This document shows, one piece after another, positions 1,531 through 11,307 of a DNA stretch of 64,000 nucleotides; the first letter of the stretch is position 1, and each line of letters starts with the position of its first letter. This DNA comes from Bacteroidales bacterium (GTDB taxonomy: Bacteria; Bacteroidota; Bacteroidia; Bacteroidales; UBA932), in NCBI GenBank assembly GCA_012510445.1, contig JAAZIA010000002.1, positions 1 through 64,000 of the forward strand, written 5' to 3'. The notes below the pieces were generated by a model. The model worked only from the letters and a program-made list of their open reading frames with translations. It searched no databases and was not told the origin of the DNA. The position numbers and the translations under genes are program-made.

Positions 1531-2850
1531 ATGGTTAAAATATTGATCATTGAAGATGACGCCGCTTTTAATTCTCTGTTAAGAACTTGGCTAACCAAGG
1601 CCGGGTACAGGGCGGAAAGTGTGCTCTCTGCAGGAGAAGCCATGAAGGCAGTACAGGCCGGGGTGTACGATATTATTCTTTCAGATTTGCGTCTTCCCGA
1701 CACAGAAGGACTCGCACTTTTACAATGGATACGTGAAACGTCGCCCGACAGTGCCGTATTTATAATGACAGGGTATGCAGATATCCATACGGCGGTACAG
1801 GCCATAAGGCTGGGGGCTGCCGATTATTTGGAAAAACCGGTGGATCCGGTGTTGCTGCGGGAGAAAATAGATGAAATCATTAAGAAGAAAGACCGACCAC
1901 ATGAACGTATACCTTTTATAAAAGGAGAGAGTGTAGCTTCTGAGAAGTTGTACGAACACATGATGTTGGTAGCACCTACTTTCTTATCGGTACTTATTTC
2001 CGGAGCCAGCGGCACAGGAAAAGAATACGTGGCCAACCACATTCATCAGAACAGCCTGCGACGCGAAGAACCCTTTGTGGCACTCGATTGCGGAGCCATT
2101 CCCAGGGACTTGGCAGGAAGTGAATTGTTTGGACATATAAAAGGGTCGTTTACCGGTGCCATAGGTGACAAAAAAGGAGCCTTTGAAATGGCAGACGGAG
2201 GAACGTTGTTTTTGGACGAGGTGGGAAACCTTTCTACCGATATCCAAATGCAGCTCTTACGTGCCTTACAGGAAGGGGTTATAAAACCGGTGGGCAGTTC
2301 TAAGTTTATAGAAGTAAATATCCGAATCATTACAGCTACTAATGTAGATTTGAAAGAGATGATAGAGCAGGGCAAGTTCCGGGAAGATCTGTATCACAGA
2401 ATCAATGAATTTCAGTTGAATATGCCGCTTTTGAAAGACCGCGGGCAAGACATCCTGTTGTTTGCCGGTCATTTTTTGGAGTATGCTAACCGACAAATGA
2501 ACAAGAAGATCAAAGGATTTGCCCCTGAAGCACAAGAACTTATGTTAGCATACGATTGGAGGGGGAACTTGCGCGAGTTGTTAAATGTGGTTAAGCGTAC
2601 GGTCTTGCTAAGCGAAGGGCCGCAAGTGTTGGCTACCGATTTACCCGAAGAAATTCACAACCTGTCTTTTAAAGAGGTAGTACCTCAGACTCCGGGACAA
2701 GATGCCCAGACCTTGAAAGAACAACACGAGCGCCAGATGATAACAGAAGCGCTTGCCCGTACACGAAACAACAAAACGAAGGCAGCTCGGTTGTTGGGCA
2801 TTGACCGTAAAACGCTATACAATAAAATGAAGCTCTATAATATGGAGTAA
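1531..2850 (+). CDS. Sigma54-dependent NtrC-family response regulator
   Basis: A 439-residue transcription activator with three parts. A receiver domain (about 1-118) has the acidic pair D9/D10 and phospho-acceptor D52 in SDLRLPD. A sigma54-interacting AAA+ domain (about 140-370) has Walker A GASGTGKE, the loop GSFTGA (a variant of GAFTGA) and Walker B TLFLDEVG. A C-terminal Fis-type helix-turn-helix ends in RLLGIDRKTLYNKMK. The ATG at 1531 is chosen because the receiver domain begins there; the longer frame upstream has no family match. Its 3' end overlaps the convergent hybrid kinase gene by 36 bp, and that kinase is the likely phosphodonor. Targets are unknown. Confidence 0.93.
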   Translation: MVKILIIEDDAAFNSLLRTWLTKAGYRAESVLSAGEAMKAVQAGVYDIILSDLRLPDTEGLALLQWIRETSPDSAVFIMTGYADIHTAVQAIRLGAADYLEKPVDPVLLREKIDEIIKKKDRPHERIPFIKGESVASEKLYEHMMLVAPTFLSVLISGASGTGKEYVANHIHQNSLRREEPFVALDCGAIPRDLAGSELFGHIKGSFTGAIGDKKGAFEMADGGTLFLDEVGNLSTDIQMQLLRALQEGVIKPVGSSKFIEVNIRIITATNVDLKEMIEQGKFREDLYHRINEFQLNMPLLKDRGQDILLFAGHFLEYANRQMNKKIKGFAPEAQELMLAYDWRGNLRELLNVVKRTVLLSEGPQVLATDLPEEIHNLSFKEVVPQTPGQDAQTLKEQHERQMITEALARTRNNKTKAARLLGIDRKTLYNKMKLYNME

Positions 2851-5361
2851 ATCGCGCGCTTGTTGTATCACTTTTTTTACTTTCTCGGGGGCTTTTCCAC
2901 CGGCACGCTCCAGCATAGCCAGGTCATTTGCCAAAGAGGCGTGCAATTGACGGAACATGGGGAGCATCTTATGGGCAAGAACGGCAATCTGCTCGTAATC
3001 TTTAGACTCCAGACTTTCTTCCATGGAAGTTAAAGCTTGCCGGGCTGTAGTGTAAAATACTTGTAAAACTTGTATTACGGCTTCTAAATCTGCATCCAGC
3101 ATACGTCCCATTTCAGACAAAGAAAATAGGTTGTGGGTATTCGGAGAAGGGATGCCTGTTAAAAGCTTTTCCAGTCGGTCTAAAGTAAACGGCTTTGGCA
3201 AATGTGCCGTAAATCCTTTGTTTGTATAATGGTAGGACGGATACATACCTTCTGCCGTTACGGCAATTACGGGAATGTCTTTTAAAGCCCGGACTGCTTC
3301 CAACAGACAAAAACCGTCTTCGTTAGGCATTTGAATGTCCGTTAGCACCACGTCTATAGGCAGGGTTTTTAGTAGTGCAATGGCCTGTTGTGTTCCTTGA
3401 GCGGTGGCGGCTAGGTGTCCTAACATGCGAAGCATTTCATGCAAAAGGGTGCGTTGTGACGGGTCGTCGTCAACTATCAGTACGCGCAACGGGCCGGAAG
3501 ACAATTTATCTGTAGCAGAAGCGGCCTCTGCCGTTAGGATATCTGAGGTTTCAGGCGGGTCTGCAAGTTCAGAAAGCGCGTCTGTAACCTGTACAGGTAT
3601 GGTTACGCTGAATGTGCTCCCCTTATCTTTGTTTTGGAAAATGGAAATGCTGCCTTTAAACAGGTCTACGGTGCGTTTAACAATGGATAGTCCCAGTCCC
3701 ATGCCTTCTTTTGCAATGTTGTTTGTGTGTTCCAGTTGCGTAAACTCTTCAAAAATAAGCTGTTTGGCTTTGGGGGAAATGCCAATTCCTGTATCGTAAA
3801 CAGAAAAGAACAACTCTTTCCCCTCTAAGAAAACGTATAAGCTTATTTGTCCTTTTTCTGTAAACTTGACGGCATTGGACAGCAGGTTCATCACTATCTG
3901 TCGTAGGCGCAGAGGGTCTGTTATAAGGTACGTATGGGCCGGGATATCTGTTTTCAAATGTAGGGCAATTCCCTTTTTTCCGGCAGCCGGGGCAAAAACA
4001 GCCAGTGCATCTTCAAAGAGCTGTCTGATGGGAGTGGGCGAAGGATTCAGTTCCACTTTTTGTGCTTCCAGACGGTAATATTCCAGCAGATTGGCCAGTA
4101 GTTCCATAACGTGCTCTGCAGAGTGTACCATGGGGATTAGGTATTCTTCTGTCTTGTTTGGAGAGTTTTTTCCGGACGGGTGGCGTAACAGATCCAAGTA
4201 TCCGACAATGGAACTTAAGGGGGCTTTTATATCGTGTGTGACGGTAAGAAGTAAATTTTCCCGGCTTTTCATAAGTTCTTCTGCCCGGGTACGGGCCGCT
4301 TCCAGATCTTTTCTGTACTTCCGGCTTTTGTTTACGTCCGTAAATATAAGCAGGGTAAATAAAAAGATGATAAACAAGGCAGTAGCTCCTAAAATAGAAA
4401 GTGAAGTGCCGGCTTGTTCTAAAGAGGCCCTGCGCGTTTCCAGAGCACTGGATGTAGAGTGAAACCATTCTTTGTTAAGCTCGTCCAACAGTTTGTTGAT
4501 CTCTAGGTTTAATGCCCTGTCTGTTGCTATAAGTTGTTCCAATCTGGCTCCAATGATTTTTAATTGGTCTTGACGCTCTGCCTCTACATCGTCTAAGACT
4601 TGCATAACGGCACGTACCACGGTATCGCGGCTGGTGGTAGTAGAAACAGCCGGAGCAGGGGTAGCTGGAACAACACGTACCAGCGAATCCGTTACGGTTC
4701 GCCGGATTTGCCTGAATTCCATAATGCTGTCTTGCATTTGAGAAGGAACAAAGGCATGGCTTAGGCGTTCAAAAAACGTTTGCTTAGGACGGTGTAAAGC
4801 GGTAACGATGGTATCGTAAATCACTTCTTCTCTTATGACAACAGGCTGCGTAGGCCGTGATGTGACTTCTGTGAGCATAGGTACTTGAGGCATGACCGGC
4901 AGCTGCGGCAAGGCCCTGTCCACCTTTTGAACTACCGTTTCTTGCTGGCTGCGCCGGCTTAACTCTTGCTGTTGACGTGCAATGTCCAGAATGTTTGTGT
5001 CTCTGCATAACAACAAGCTGTCAATTTCCTGTAAAATTTTCTTTTGGCGTTCTACCGGAGTGCTTCTGCTTAGGGAGTCCAACAAGGTATCAACTTTGTT
5101 AAGTGCACCACGGTACAAGTGATAGTTCTCTTCTTTCGGGTCCTGAATAAAACGGGTTCCCAGCCACTCGGCTTCATACAATAAAGAGATAGAGTTACTG
5201 ATGAGCAGGCTTCTCTCTAGGATTTCTTCCCTGCGGTCTTCGCTTTGAAAAAGAAAAGGGTATACGTGTTTATACACATACCATCCCGACCCCAAAGCCA
5301 ACGCTACCAAGAGCAGGTAACTAAAGATAATTTTAAGCTTAAAGCCGGCGTCTTGTTTCAT
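2815..5361 (-). CDS. Hybrid sensor histidine kinase with REC and Hpt domains
   Basis: An 848-residue inner-membrane sensor. One membrane segment lies at about 10-31, then a 300-residue extracytoplasmic sensor region of no family I recognise, rich in helices and with a Pro/Thr-rich stretch at 150-250. A second membrane segment is at about 331-351. It is followed by HisKA with H376 in VTHDIKAPL, HATPase with N-box and GLGLSI, a receiver domain with D675, and an Hpt domain with H797 in LAHKML. This gives a full His-Asp-His relay, with the receiver of the convergent NtrC-type regulator as the natural final acceptor. The 351-bp region in front holds three phased ATTCCCC repeats. Confidence 0.92.
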   Translation of the reverse strand: MKQDAGFKLKIIFSYLLLVALALGSGWYVYKHVYPFLFQSEDRREEILERSLLISNSISLLYEAEWLGTRFIQDPKEENYHLYRGALNKVDTLLDSLSRSTPVERQKKILQEIDSLLLCRDTNILDIARQQQELSRRSQQETVVQKVDRALPQLPVMPQVPMLTEVTSRPTQPVVIREEVIYDTIVTALHRPKQTFFERLSHAFVPSQMQDSIMEFRQIRRTVTDSLVRVVPATPAPAVSTTTSRDTVVRAVMQVLDDVEAERQDQLKIIGARLEQLIATDRALNLEINKLLDELNKEWFHSTSSALETRRASLEQAGTSLSILGATALFIIFLFTLLIFTDVNKSRKYRKDLEAARTRAEELMKSRENLLLTVTHDIKAPLSSIVGYLDLLRHPSGKNSPNKTEEYLIPMVHSAEHVMELLANLLEYYRLEAQKVELNPSPTPIRQLFEDALAVFAPAAGKKGIALHLKTDIPAHTYLITDPLRLRQIVMNLLSNAVKFTEKGQISLYVFLEGKELFFSVYDTGIGISPKAKQLIFEEFTQLEHTNNIAKEGMGLGLSIVKRTVDLFKGSISIFQNKDKGSTFSVTIPVQVTDALSELADPPETSDILTAEAASATDKLSSGPLRVLIVDDDPSQRTLLHEMLRMLGHLAATAQGTQQAIALLKTLPIDVVLTDIQMPNEDGFCLLEAVRALKDIPVIAVTAEGMYPSYHYTNKGFTAHLPKPFTLDRLEKLLTGIPSPNTHNLFSLSEMGRMLDADLEAVIQVLQVFYTTARQALTSMEESLESKDYEQIAVLAHKMLPMFRQLHASLANDLAMLERAGGKAPEKVKKVIQQARDLLHIIELHFIV

Positions 5362-5669
5362 AAGACGAAGTTAAAAAGAAATCCCGGCTGCACAAAAGCT
5401 AGAAAGTGGGGAAAAATTCCCCACTTTTCCCGTTGATTCCCCAGTTGTTGAAAGAAATTCCCCGGTTGTTTTTGCAAAAATGAAAATAAAAACGGTTTCT
5501 TTTATGCAGAATCACCTGGTTTTTGGGCGATTAGTAATAAAAATATTTTTTCTTCTGCTGTGTTGTGGAATTGTGGAACGCTATTTGGGTAATACTATAC
5601 GAAAGGTTGCAGTGAGCGCGCGAATTTTTCATGCAAACAAAAGTCGAAAGACGCGCTTCAAAATAAGAA
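5362..5669. other. Long intergenic region upstream of hybrid kinase
   Basis: No convincing gene lies between the kinase start and the cysS terminator. The region holds the ATTCCCC repeats and palindrome (5403-5470). The rest, 5471-5669, is A/T-rich with no recognisable element. I searched by eye for a sigma54 -24/-12 pair with GG and GC ten bases apart on both strands and did not find a good one, and I saw no clear TAnnTTTG box on the minus strand. Confidence 0.5.
5403..5470 (-). promoter_or_regulatory. Phased ATTCCCC repeats, candidate operator/enhancer
   Basis: ATTCCCC occurs at 5416, 5436 and 5457, with start-to-start spacing of 20 and 21 bp, about two turns of the helix. The last two copies extend to a 14-mer match with one difference (ATTCCCCAGTTGTT and ATTCCCCGGTTGTT). 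The first lies in a perfect inverted repeat with 11-bp arms (AAAGTGGGGAA 5403-5413, TTCCCCACTTT 5417-5427). Such phasing suggests binding of a protein on one face of DNA, 55-110 bp upstream of the kinase gene. The neighbouring NtrC-type regulator is the obvious candidate, by inference. Confidence 0.5.
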
Positions 5670-5700
5670 AGAGGATGACTAATACCATCCTCTTTTTTAT
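5670..5700 (-). terminator. Intrinsic terminator after cysS
   Basis: AGAGGATG (5670-5677) pairs with CATCCTCT (5686-5693) around an 8-nt loop. The minus strand continues with TTTCTTATTTT and the plus strand with TTTTTTATTTC, so it could stop transcription in both directions. It lies just beyond the cysS stop codon. Confidence 0.8.
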
Positions 5701-5712
5701 TTCTTTTTGGAG

Positions 5713-7185
5713 TTATTCTATATCCCACTCGGTTTTTTCTGCAGCATCCTTTATATGGATCCCCAAACCGGACAAGCTGTCACGAATTTTATCCGACGTA
5801 TCCCAATCTTTCCGGGAGCGTGCTTGTGTTCTGTATTCTAAAATCATTTCTACCAAGCCTTCAATCATAGGCATCCGATCTCGGTTCTGCTCTTCTTCCA
5901 AACCCAAAACACCTTGTACTACACGCCGGTACAGACCTATTGCCCGTTCTTTATCTTGTGGAGCCATGGGTTGGTTGCTTGCAGCAACCGTATGAATGAG
6001 GGTTACCATTTCAAAAAGAGCAGCTAAGGCAACAGGGGTATTTAGATCGTCACACAAAGCAGCATACGTTCTGGCTTCTATATCTTGCCATTCTTTAGAA
6101 ACGGTTGCCTTGGGGTCTGTGGTTATTTTATCCAGCTGCGTTTCTCCTCTAAGTAATCTTCTTAGGCCCGTTTGGGCGGCAACCAATGCCTGGTCGCTAA
6201 AATCAAGCGGTCCTCTGTAATGTGCCTGCAGAATAAAGAACCGTATGGTCATAGGAGAAAACGGTTGGGAAAGGAGCGGATGATTTCCGCTAAAAAGCTC
6301 TTCCAGGGTAATGAAATTCCCCAGAGATTTACCCATCTTTTGTCCGTTAATAGTAATCAGGTTGTTATGCATCCAATACCGAATGCTGTCTTTACCGCGT
6401 GTTACCGTATTTTGTGCCAGCTCACATTCGTGATGCGGAAATAACAAATCCATACCTCCTCCGTGGATGTCAAAGACCTGTCCCAGGTATTTGGAACTCA
6501 TAACGGAACATTCCAGATGCCATCCGGGGAACCCGTCGCTCCAGGGAGAGGGCCAGCGCATGATGTGTTCGGGAGCTGCTTTTTTCCAAAGAGCAAAATC
6601 GTAAGGTGATCGTTTGTCTTCACCCCCTTCCAAATCTCTTGTTTGTACTTGCAAATCTTCCAGAATACGGCCGGAAAGCACACCGTAGTTATGTTTTTTA
6701 CTGTAAGCTTCAATATCAAAATAGACAGAACCGTTGACTTCATACGCCATGCCTGCATCCAGAATTTGTTGTACCATGGCAATTTGTTCTGTAATATGTC
6801 CGGAAGCTCTGGGTTCAATGGAAGGAGGAAGGGTATTGAGTTGCTCCATGGCTTTATGGTACCGGATGGTATAGTGCTGCACAATTTCCATGGGCTCCAA
6901 TTCTTCCAGACGTGCTTTTTTGGCAATCTTATCTTCTCCGTCATCGGCATCGCTTTCCAGGTGTCCTACGTCTGTAATGTTACGTACGTAGCGCACTTTA
7001 TAGCCCAGGTCTTTCATAAGCCGTACAAACACATCGTAAACCACACCCGGGCGGGCGTGCCCCAAGTGTGGATCTCCGTACACCGTGGGCCCGCATACGT
7101 AAAGTCCTACGTGGCCCGGTACCAAAGGTTCAAATTTTTCTTTTTTTCTGGTAAGTGTATTATAAATAAACAATTCGTGCGGCAT
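5713..7185 (-). CDS. cysS: Cysteine--tRNA ligase
   Basis: Class I aminoacyl-tRNA synthetase of 490 residues that charges tRNA-Cys. The HIGH-type motif is HLGH at 40-43 in [11 protein letters not shown], and the second signature is KMGKS at 283-287, with Gly where many homologues have Ser. The zinc site is visible as C31, C226, H251 and E255. The C-terminal helical domain is complete, ending just before the terminator at 5670-5700. It follows ssb by 38 bp on the same strand, but a -7 box in that gap suggests its own promoter. Confidence 0.97.
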
Positions 7186-9832: not shown

Positions 9833-10744
9833 ATGAAACGTTTAGTAAGCGGGCTGTTTGTCTTAATAACCTTTACATTACAAGCTCAAAATATTAACCT
9901 GGAATTTAAACCGGTCAAAGGGGTGGAATACCCTATTTTTCTTGAAGTTAACCAGAGTACAACCCTTCGTGTTCCCATGATGGGAGATATGGTTACAGAA
10001 AGCGATCAGGTGCTGGAAGCCGTCATTACTTTGGAAGAAGAAACAGAGCAGGGGTATGTGATTGAGGCCTGCCTTACAAGGATTACTTTGCGAACCTCTG
10101 CACAGGGACAGACAAAGGTGTACGATTCTGAAGGGGAAGACGTGATGAGCCTGGCTATACGTTCTTTAATGGGTAAACCTTTTAGAATGGTTGTTTCTCC
10201 AAAAGGTTATGTTCTGGAACAACTGCCTGTGCCAGAAGGTATGTTTGATGCAGCAGACAGTACGCTTGCCACTCAATACGCACGCCGTCGCCGTGGAACG
10301 GCCATGGAAGAAATAAAGGCTATTTTTAGAGAGGCAACTATCAAAAGCGTTGTGGAATCCGGACTTACAAAATTTCCCGACAGAGCCTTGGGAGTTCCTT
10401 CTGTATGGACAGAAGAGGATGCCAGTGAAGAGTTGGGAGCTTTGGTGACCATGCAACAGCGGCTGACTGCGATAGAAGGAAACCATGCATTCTTAACGGC
10501 CAATATGGTAATCATGTCTGATCCCAATGCCAAAAAACAGGAGGGTCCGCAGCGGATAGAAAACATTTCCGGTAGCGGACAGGCTACGGCTACCATAGAT
10601 ACACATAGTGGATGGGTAGTAGAAAGTGAGGGAACTCAGAGCCTGAAAGGAGATTTTGTAATAGAGCAGGGCGGGATGGTTCAAGCCATAGATATGGTTA
10701 TGGAGGTAAAGACTAAAGTGAGTTCTACTGAAAGGAGACAGTAA
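9833..10744 (+). CDS. Exported protein, DUF6263-like
   Basis: A 303-residue protein with a signal peptide (MKRLVSGLFVLITFTLQAQ) and no further membrane segment. The rest is a predicted beta-rich domain with alternating hydrophobic strands, an Arg-rich turn (YARRRRG) near residue 150, and a C-terminal GSGQATATIDTHSGWV ... SLKGDF pattern resembling DUF6263 proteins of Bacteroidota. That family assignment is from memory and only moderately sure, and no enzymatic motif is visible. The last 20 bp overlap the convergent DUF4402 gene. Confidence 0.75.
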   Translation: MKRLVSGLFVLITFTLQAQNINLEFKPVKGVEYPIFLEVNQSTTLRVPMMGDMVTESDQVLEAVITLEEETEQGYVIEACLTRITLRTSAQGQTKVYDSEGEDVMSLAIRSLMGKPFRMVVSPKGYVLEQLPVPEGMFDAADSTLATQYARRRRGTAMEEIKAIFREATIKSVVESGLTKFPDRALGVPSVWTEEDASEELGALVTMQQRLTAIEGNHAFLTANMVIMSDPNAKKQEGPQRIENISGSGQATATIDTHSGWVVESEGTQSLKGDFVIEQGGMVQAIDMVMEVKTKVSSTERRQ

Positions 10745-11237
10745 TCTTTAAGTCTGTGTTATTGGAATAGATACCCGGCGGCTGGTTGGCACTAACTATC
10801 AAAGTGGCTCCTACCGCCACAGTGGTTTTTCCGTTGCTTCCCAATACTCCGCTGCTGGGAGAAATTACAAAAGCACCAACAGTCATAGTATTGTTTTGGG
10901 AGTCTTCAAGGGTAATTGTAGTTGGAAGGCTAGGAAAGGAAAAACTTTGACCGGCGCCTCCTTTCACTTCAAAACTGGCAACACTAAACGAGGTACCCAT
11001 CAAGCCCACACCCCCGGTAGCAGTACGGTTTCCATTGTCCGGGTTTATTATTACAGAGCCACCTCCATGAGGAATTATGTCCCCAAAAAGTAAATCGGTT
11101 ATTTTTGTTACTTCTGTAATTTCTATTAAAGTAATGGTTGCATCCCCTGCAGTACCACCGGAAGTTTGACCTTGCGCCAGAACAGAAGAAAGACCCGTCA
11201 GAAGGGCTGTTAGTAAAAATATTTTTAAGATCTTCAT
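10725..11237 (-). CDS. DUF4402 family secreted protein (copy 3)
   Basis: A 170-residue exported protein. The ATG at 11237 gives a clean signal peptide (MKILKIFLLTALLTGLSSVLAQ) and follows a canonical promoter; the longer frame starting at 11291 crosses that promoter. DUF4402 marks are DLLFGDI near residue 50, the GSVIINPDNGNR block, and a C-terminal VGATLIVSANQPPGIY with final beta strand. It is closer to copy 1 than to copy 2 by eye, even though it lies 10 kb away. Its 3' end overlaps the convergent gene by 20 bp. Confidence 0.84.
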   Translation of the reverse strand: MKILKIFLLTALLTGLSSVLAQGQTSGGTAGDATITLIEITEVTKITDLLFGDIIPHGGGSVIINPDNGNRTATGGVGLMGTSFSVASFEVKGGAGQSFSFPSLPTTITLEDSQNNTMTVGAFVISPSSGVLGSNGKTTVAVGATLIVSANQPPGIYSNNTDLKITVSFQ

Positions 11238-11261
11238 AGTGAATGGTTCCCCAAACTCCCA

Positions 11262-11307
11262 CAAAAGTAGGAATTTTGCTACAAAAAGCAAACAGCTTTC
11301 AACATAC
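11262..11307 (-). promoter_or_regulatory. Canonical promoter of DUF4402 copy 3 with upstream 11-bp element
   Basis: On the minus strand: TTTG at 11289-11292, 19 bp, then TACTTTTG at 11262-11269, giving a transcription start about 20 nt before the ATG. GTATGTTGAAA (11297-11307) lies immediately upstream of the -33 element, 27 bp from the -7 box, as at DUF4402 copy 1 (26 bp). Confidence 0.7.

Follow-up and report, generated by a model that had tools for sequence, protein, structure and literature searches.

The window (the whole 64,000-nucleotide stretch of DNA that was analysed) comes from a Bacteroidales draft genome of 1.71 Mb that is 86.7% complete. The region of interest is bounded by cysS, whose stop is near 5713, and by a gene for a hybrid histidine kinase on the minus strand (5361-2815), which is convergent with a gene for an NtrC-type response regulator. 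The features of the locus, with the basis of each assignment, are:

1531-2850, plus strand: NtrC-type response regulator with a receiver, an AAA+ domain with GSFTGA and a Fis-type HTH; proposed binder of the sites
2815-5361, minus strand: hybrid histidine kinase with HisKA, HATPase, receiver and a weak C-terminal HPt (Pfam)
5366-5396, minus strand: candidate housekeeping promoter of the kinase, nearly leaderless, composed of TTTG (5396-5393) and TAACTTCG (5373-5366) (by eye)
5403-5427, no strand assigned: candidate core enhancer palindrome, AAAGTGGGGAA-AAA-TTCCCCACTTT, with the conserved core GKGGAA-N3-TTCCMC (congener comparison)
5436-5449, plus strand: second half-site, ATTCCCCAGTTGTT (half-site spacing in congeners)
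5457-5470, plus strand: third half-site, ATTCCCCGGTTGTT (sequence comparison)
5565-5570, plus strand: GTGGAA half-site close upstream of the -24 element, at -66 from the loop ATG
5574-5589, plus strand: sigma54-like -24/-12 element, TGGAACG-CTAT-TTGGG (TGGAAY-N5-TTG in 12 congener loci)
5600-5702, plus strand: predicted small RNA of ~100 nt, its 5' end placed from the -24/-12 element (covariance model, pair counts)
5612-5659, plus strand: stem-loop 1, with the loop CATGCAAAC at 5630-5638, invariant in nine aligned sequences
5661-5702, plus strand: terminator hairpin common to the RNA and to cysS on the minus strand (terminator scan)

The regulator matches Pfam Response_reg, Sigma54_activat and HTH_8, all above cut-off, and carries the GAFTGA loop as the one-residue variant GSFTGA. 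The HPt match of the kinase is weak (E 0.0034, 18.0 bits, under the cut-off of 24.6). The genome also encodes rpoN (above cut-off, 180 bits), with the RpoN box ARRTVAKYREQL. An orthologue of the regulator adjoins the kinase in 8/8 close loci at 76-93% identity, the match in L008 covering 215 residues only, and the recognition-helix string IDRKTLYNK or VDRKTLYNK is kept in all nine regulator orthologues compared. Among the best 45 matches, orthologues at distant loci, including those of Aquimarina, Salinimicrobium and Odoribacter, show near 50% identity; the convergent kinase-regulator pair is evidently old. Elsewhere in the window, at 181-717, 933-1805 and 10725-11291 (minus strand), are three similar-looking proteins, made up of repeated short frames of surface type with VIKLTK/VEVT..GDI motifs.

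As the preliminary description had reported, ATTCCCC begins at 5416, 5436 and 5457 on the plus strand (spacing 20 and 21 bp), the last two 14-mers are identical at 13/14 positions (93%), and the first site lies in an inverted repeat (5403-5413 and 5417-5427) with 11-bp arms that are 100% complementary and separated by 3 nt. Taken singly, ATTCCCC is no more frequent in the window than expected (9 copies vs 10.3), but none of 300 dinucleotide shuffles of the window produced three copies on one strand within 48 bp; the clustering of ATTCCCC is the unusual part, and not chance. A genome-wide search for ATTCCCC-N12-15-ATTCCCC gave two matches, both at this locus (reversed control: one). In the same genome the exact palindrome, GGGGAANNNTTCCCC, is unique to this locus, its four one-mismatch copies (L086-L089) all lie inside long reading frames, and allowing up to two mismatches yields 68 matches vs 56 for the reversed control, a slight enrichment at most. 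A genome-wide regulon defined by the palindrome was thus rejected for this genome, where the exact copy at this locus stands alone. The promoter-like pattern TGGAAC-N5-TTG-NN-T occurs at eight places including this one; the other seven have no half-site array upstream, and three of them have lone TTCCMC or GKGGAA words.

The locus is present in 12 of the 13 congener genomes. From the kinase ATG to the RNA core, the 12 regions hold 46 GKGGAA/TTCCMC half-sites, a count that takes in words overlapping the -24 element, vs a mean of 5.7 and a maximum of 14 in 500 shuffled sets. The palindrome GKGGAA-N3-TTCCMC is present in 9/12 regions and in none of the 500 sets, so the motif is conserved upstream of the orthologous kinases, where the preliminary description had proposed to look for it. 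Two of the three remaining congeners have near-matches ending ACCCC, and in the third (G011; L008 and L127) eleven Ns stand roughly where the palindrome is expected. The regulator gene of this last genome is matched in two pieces. Exact copies of GGGGAANNNTTCCCC occur at nine places in the 13 congener genomes, seven of them at this region (reversed control: 0), and the two extra places (L173, L180) are both inside long reading frames.

In nine of the 12 congeners, nine intervals between successive TTCCMC sites measure 20-23 bp and two measure 42-43 bp, close to two or four helical turns; one 108-bp interval was set aside, and the remaining three genomes have fewer than two such sites. The earlier view of three equal direct sites did not survive this comparison, since the form that is conserved is an inverted-repeat core with extra half-sites, and direct repeats were for that reason rejected as the main form. 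A further half-site (5565-5570) has a counterpart, GGGGAA, at the matching place in seven congeners (-70 or -71 from the loop ATG). This half-site precedes the -24 element by 8-12 bp and could be either a part of the promoter or a repressing site.

On the strand opposite the kinase, the pattern TGGAAY-N5-TTG occurs once per locus in 12/12 congeners (12 matches in 35,807 bases), 57-63 bp before the invariant RNA loop (59 bp in 8/12). The pattern was derived from nine of the 12 sequences, so its recurrence is partly by construction; its uniqueness per locus and its fixed place are not. GG at -24 is found in the context expected for sigma54, TGG(C/A)A, as TGGAA in 12/12, and GC at -12, ten bases after GG, is absent in 12/12 (TTG is followed by A or G), for which reason we term the element sigma54-like only.

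Enhancers of bEBPs are inverted repeats, often more than one, that lie roughly 80-200 bp upstream of the -24/-12 element. The palindrome described here lies 116-161 bp from the -24 T in all 11 congeners measured: 156-161 bp in eight, two of which rest on a degenerate palindrome, and 116, 117 and 126 bp in the other three. These shorter distances differ from 156-161 bp by about four, four and three helical turns, respectively, and differences of roughly whole turns would fit a requirement that looping of the DNA bring the sites round to face the promoter. Across 78 kinase loci (L015 and L044 were omitted, as the kinase starts at another position in these loci), a sigma54-like site was found near the kinase start in ten, namely the eight close loci, L079 (at -240) and L080 (at -662).

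The predicted RNA consists of stem-loop 1, a short linker and the terminator hairpin. Its covariance model found a single copy in 12/13 congeners and none in 135 other genomes under strict filters; the 13th congener (79% complete) also lacks the kinase and the regulator. Thirteen distant kinase loci gave no credible match to the RNA, the one match being at chance level (E 1.1). In nine sequences 96.9% of cells pair, vs 42-62% when the pairing is slid, and in the 11 distinct of 12 sequences 97.6%, vs 41-62%; five pairs are changed on both sides, a value reached by 1/500 shuffles. Both the 97.6% and the five pairs are biased towards the model, the alignment having been fitted to that structure. 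Folding stability is a less informative sign: the whole plus strand is stabler than its shuffles (z -5.18; minus strand z -2.91), and a first consensus fold, from rows that were partly cut, was weak (-3.78 kcal/mol). The locus thus has the conserved structure, compensatory changes and terminator looked for in a small-RNA gene, while stem-loop 1 alone is not stabler than shuffles (z 0.34). A search with 4227 Rfam families over 5200-5900 gave no match at gathering score; GlmY/GlmZ and Qrr are not among the ten weak matches.

Translation starts of the type CAUGAAAAA are possible pairing partners for the U-rich stem and loop of the RNA (UUUUUCAUGCAAAC). In our genome TTTGCATGAAAAA with one mismatch has 17 places, and controls were similar (7 and 10 vs 8 and 7). 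The only suggestive translation start, judged by eye, is TTTTTCATGAAAAAA at the start of a long frame (L117/L118), and we claim no target of the RNA.

Outside the genus, the palindrome is found upstream of the kinase in only 2/80 loci scanned (the scan covering L012-L083 and L149-L156). Among the genomes common to the regulator and palindrome surveys, the exact palindrome occurs in 2/11 with the regulator (one of them on another contig) vs 1/32 without; this second comparison is thin, and both counts weigh against the generality of the site. In other Bacteroidales the motif takes a GTGGAA/TTCCAC form beside orthologues of the regulator or the kinase. A blind scan of 295 Bacteroidales genomes with TGTGGAANNNTTCCACA gave matches in 16 (reversed control: 5). 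Of these 16 places, L157-L159 adjoin a gene for an orthologous regulator, while L160, L165 and L172 (the last being L150 again) are beside a kinase homologue; TTTGGCAC lies within 250 bp of 6/16, vs 1/57 control stretches, so that nine places have a partner gene or TTTGGCAC and seven, which look coding or cannot be assigned, have neither. In L150 and L153, TTCCAC/GTGGAA arrays stand between the kinase and a sigma54 site of the TGGCAC type, beyond which a small, apparently secreted protein is encoded, and L079 has TTTCCACA sites, a TGGAAC-type TTTGGAACAAGTATTGG and a small protein; the signal peptides of these small proteins were judged by eye. The outgroup loci L153 and L157 have canonical TGGCAC-N5-TTGC at the place corresponding to the sigma54-like element.

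Two further arrangements were seen in other Bacteroidales. In another genus, beside a gcvP-like gene, L166 (1501-1800) and L182 (genomes G193 and G384) have a TGGCAC-type site and, after it, conserved non-coding sequence whose ends, ACCCAGAGT and ACTCTGGGT, pair; 2/8 congeners match, the palindrome is altered in L182, and the sequence may encode a second sigma54-driven RNA. L167 and L168, from two genomes of a single family, have the palindrome and TTTTGGCAC upstream of a gene for a predicted lipoprotein that by eye has a PfpI/DJ-1 look.

We consider it reasonably probable that the sites are an enhancer for the NtrC-type regulator and serve to activate the divergent sigma54-type promoter of the small RNA. 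The hybrid kinase would phosphorylate the regulator (1531-2850), which in phosphorylated form would bind, as a multimer, to the palindrome and the in-phase half-sites; the bound regulator would then act on the divergent promoter (5574-5589), with both its sigma54 dependence and the direction of control, activation, being presumptive. The predicted transcript would be a structured RNA of ~100 nt ending at the hairpin that it has in common with cysS. The preliminary description had proposed an NtrC-type enhancer, and the sequence comparisons, which show conservation of the motif, its spacing, the -24 element, the RNA structure and the linkage, support this; binding by the regulator is a prediction.

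That description had also placed the sites before the kinase, and the motif is indeed conserved upstream of it; the likeliest promoter served is, however, the divergent sigma54-like one and not (only) that of the kinase. We take TTTG at 5396-5393 to be the -33 element of the kinase promoter, and the palindrome ends ~7 bp upstream of it, so autoregulation of the kinase through the same sites is possible. This promoter was judged by eye against the Bacteroidetes -7 box TAnnTTTG (PMC9723704).

The proximity of the array to this candidate -33 element, and the fact that it stays near the kinase start in congeners, would also suit an arrangement in which the sites act solely as operators of the kinase promoter, for this or another regulator, with the neighbouring conserved element being independent. 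We regard this as unlikely, since TGGAAY-N5-TTG keeps a phased distance in 11/11 congeners measured, and in L150, L153, L079 and L157-L159 divergent genes have sigma54-like promoters close to the sites, which in L157-L159 adjoin the regulator gene and not a kinase start. Slightly less likely again is that 5574-5589 is a housekeeping or ECF-type promoter, which would take the RNA out of the control of the NtrC-type regulator: the lack of GC at -12 in all 12 sites and the presence in each of TTTG, common to the Bacteroidetes -7 box, speak for it, whereas none of the 12 sites has the TA of TAnnTTTG, TGGAA at -24 is kept in every one, and the canonical sites of L153 and L157 occupy the corresponding place.

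The remaining alternatives concern the nature of the hairpins, and we give both little credence. A terminator scan flags 5427-5403 on the minus strand (11 pairs, tail CTAGCTTTTG), as it would if the main role of the inverted repeat were that of an intrinsic terminator, or of an RNA hairpin, upstream of the kinase; congeners keep only the GGGGAA/TTCCCC core, without conservation of the outer arms or a T tail, half-sites recur separately 20-23 bp apart, and cysS is already served by the common hairpin at 5661-5702, all of which makes such a role very improbable. It is just as hard to sustain that 5600-5702 is a short protein gene (start ATGCAAACA) and the sigma54 target again a peptide. Small proteins do occupy this place in relatives outside the genus, and a 16-codon frame starting MQTE is common to 6/12 congeners, but frame lengths from that ATG across the 12 are 11, 16 (six times), 29, 32, 100, 144 and 165 codons, the long frames by inspection run antisense into cysS, base pairing governs the substitutions, and the loop is invariant at every codon position.

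Returning to the enhancer and its divergent RNA, we tentatively suggest, at slightly less than even confidence, that this genus swapped the small secreted protein that is normally the product of a divergent sigma54 promoter next to such a hybrid kinase and NtrC-type regulator for a small regulatory RNA. The outcome would be a self-contained kinase-regulator-RNA circuit whose decoded enhancer consists of GKGGAA-N3-TTCCMC and half-sites spaced at multiples of ~21 bp. The lineage of L166 and L182 may have made an independent switch from protein to RNA. The product of one regulatory slot seems to vary by family, being RNA in this genus and protein in some others. The sites used by NtrC-type regulators, and the targets of sigma54, are little known in Bacteroidota, for which this locus offers a specific candidate site for one widespread convergent kinase-regulator pair, together with a candidate RNA family. 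In the accessible portions of the literature we found no description of this RNA, this site or their link to the kinase-regulator pair, and all three appear to be new.

Parts of this arrangement have parallels in characterized systems. In the LuxO-Qrr system of Vibrio, a hybrid-kinase phosphorelay acts through the NtrC-type regulator LuxO on sigma54-driven small RNAs; our locus shares with it a hybrid kinase, an NtrC-type regulator and a proposed sigma54-driven small RNA. Unlike Qrr, the RNA described here is present in one copy per genome, is encoded beside the kinase and is unrelated to Qrr by the Rfam search. In ZraSR-ZraP, a sigma54-driven small exported protein is divergent from a kinase/NtrC-type pair, a type that L150, L153 and L079 resemble; in this genus, by contrast, the kinase is hybrid and the product made next to it appears to be RNA. 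Within Bacteroidota, Rfp36 of Flavobacterium psychrophilum is listed as a putative regulatory RNA under a sigma54-type (SM4) promoter (PMC9723704, Table 2), so a sigma54-driven RNA is, on that entry, not new to the phylum; the likeness is by description only, and the main text of that source names Rfp36 once. The nearest known design is QseEF (GlrKR)-GlmY of enterobacteria, in which a histidine kinase and an NtrC-type regulator stand beside a small-RNA gene, as predicted here, and regulator sites lie upstream of the sigma54 promoter of the small RNA (PMC8745638, PMC6075780). Our locus differs from QseEF-GlmY in its site, GKGGAA-N3-TTCCMC, in an RNA that has no Rfam match at gathering level, and in its kinase. 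The kinase is hybrid, with a receiver and a weak HPt, and its gene converges on that of the regulator and diverges from that of the RNA.
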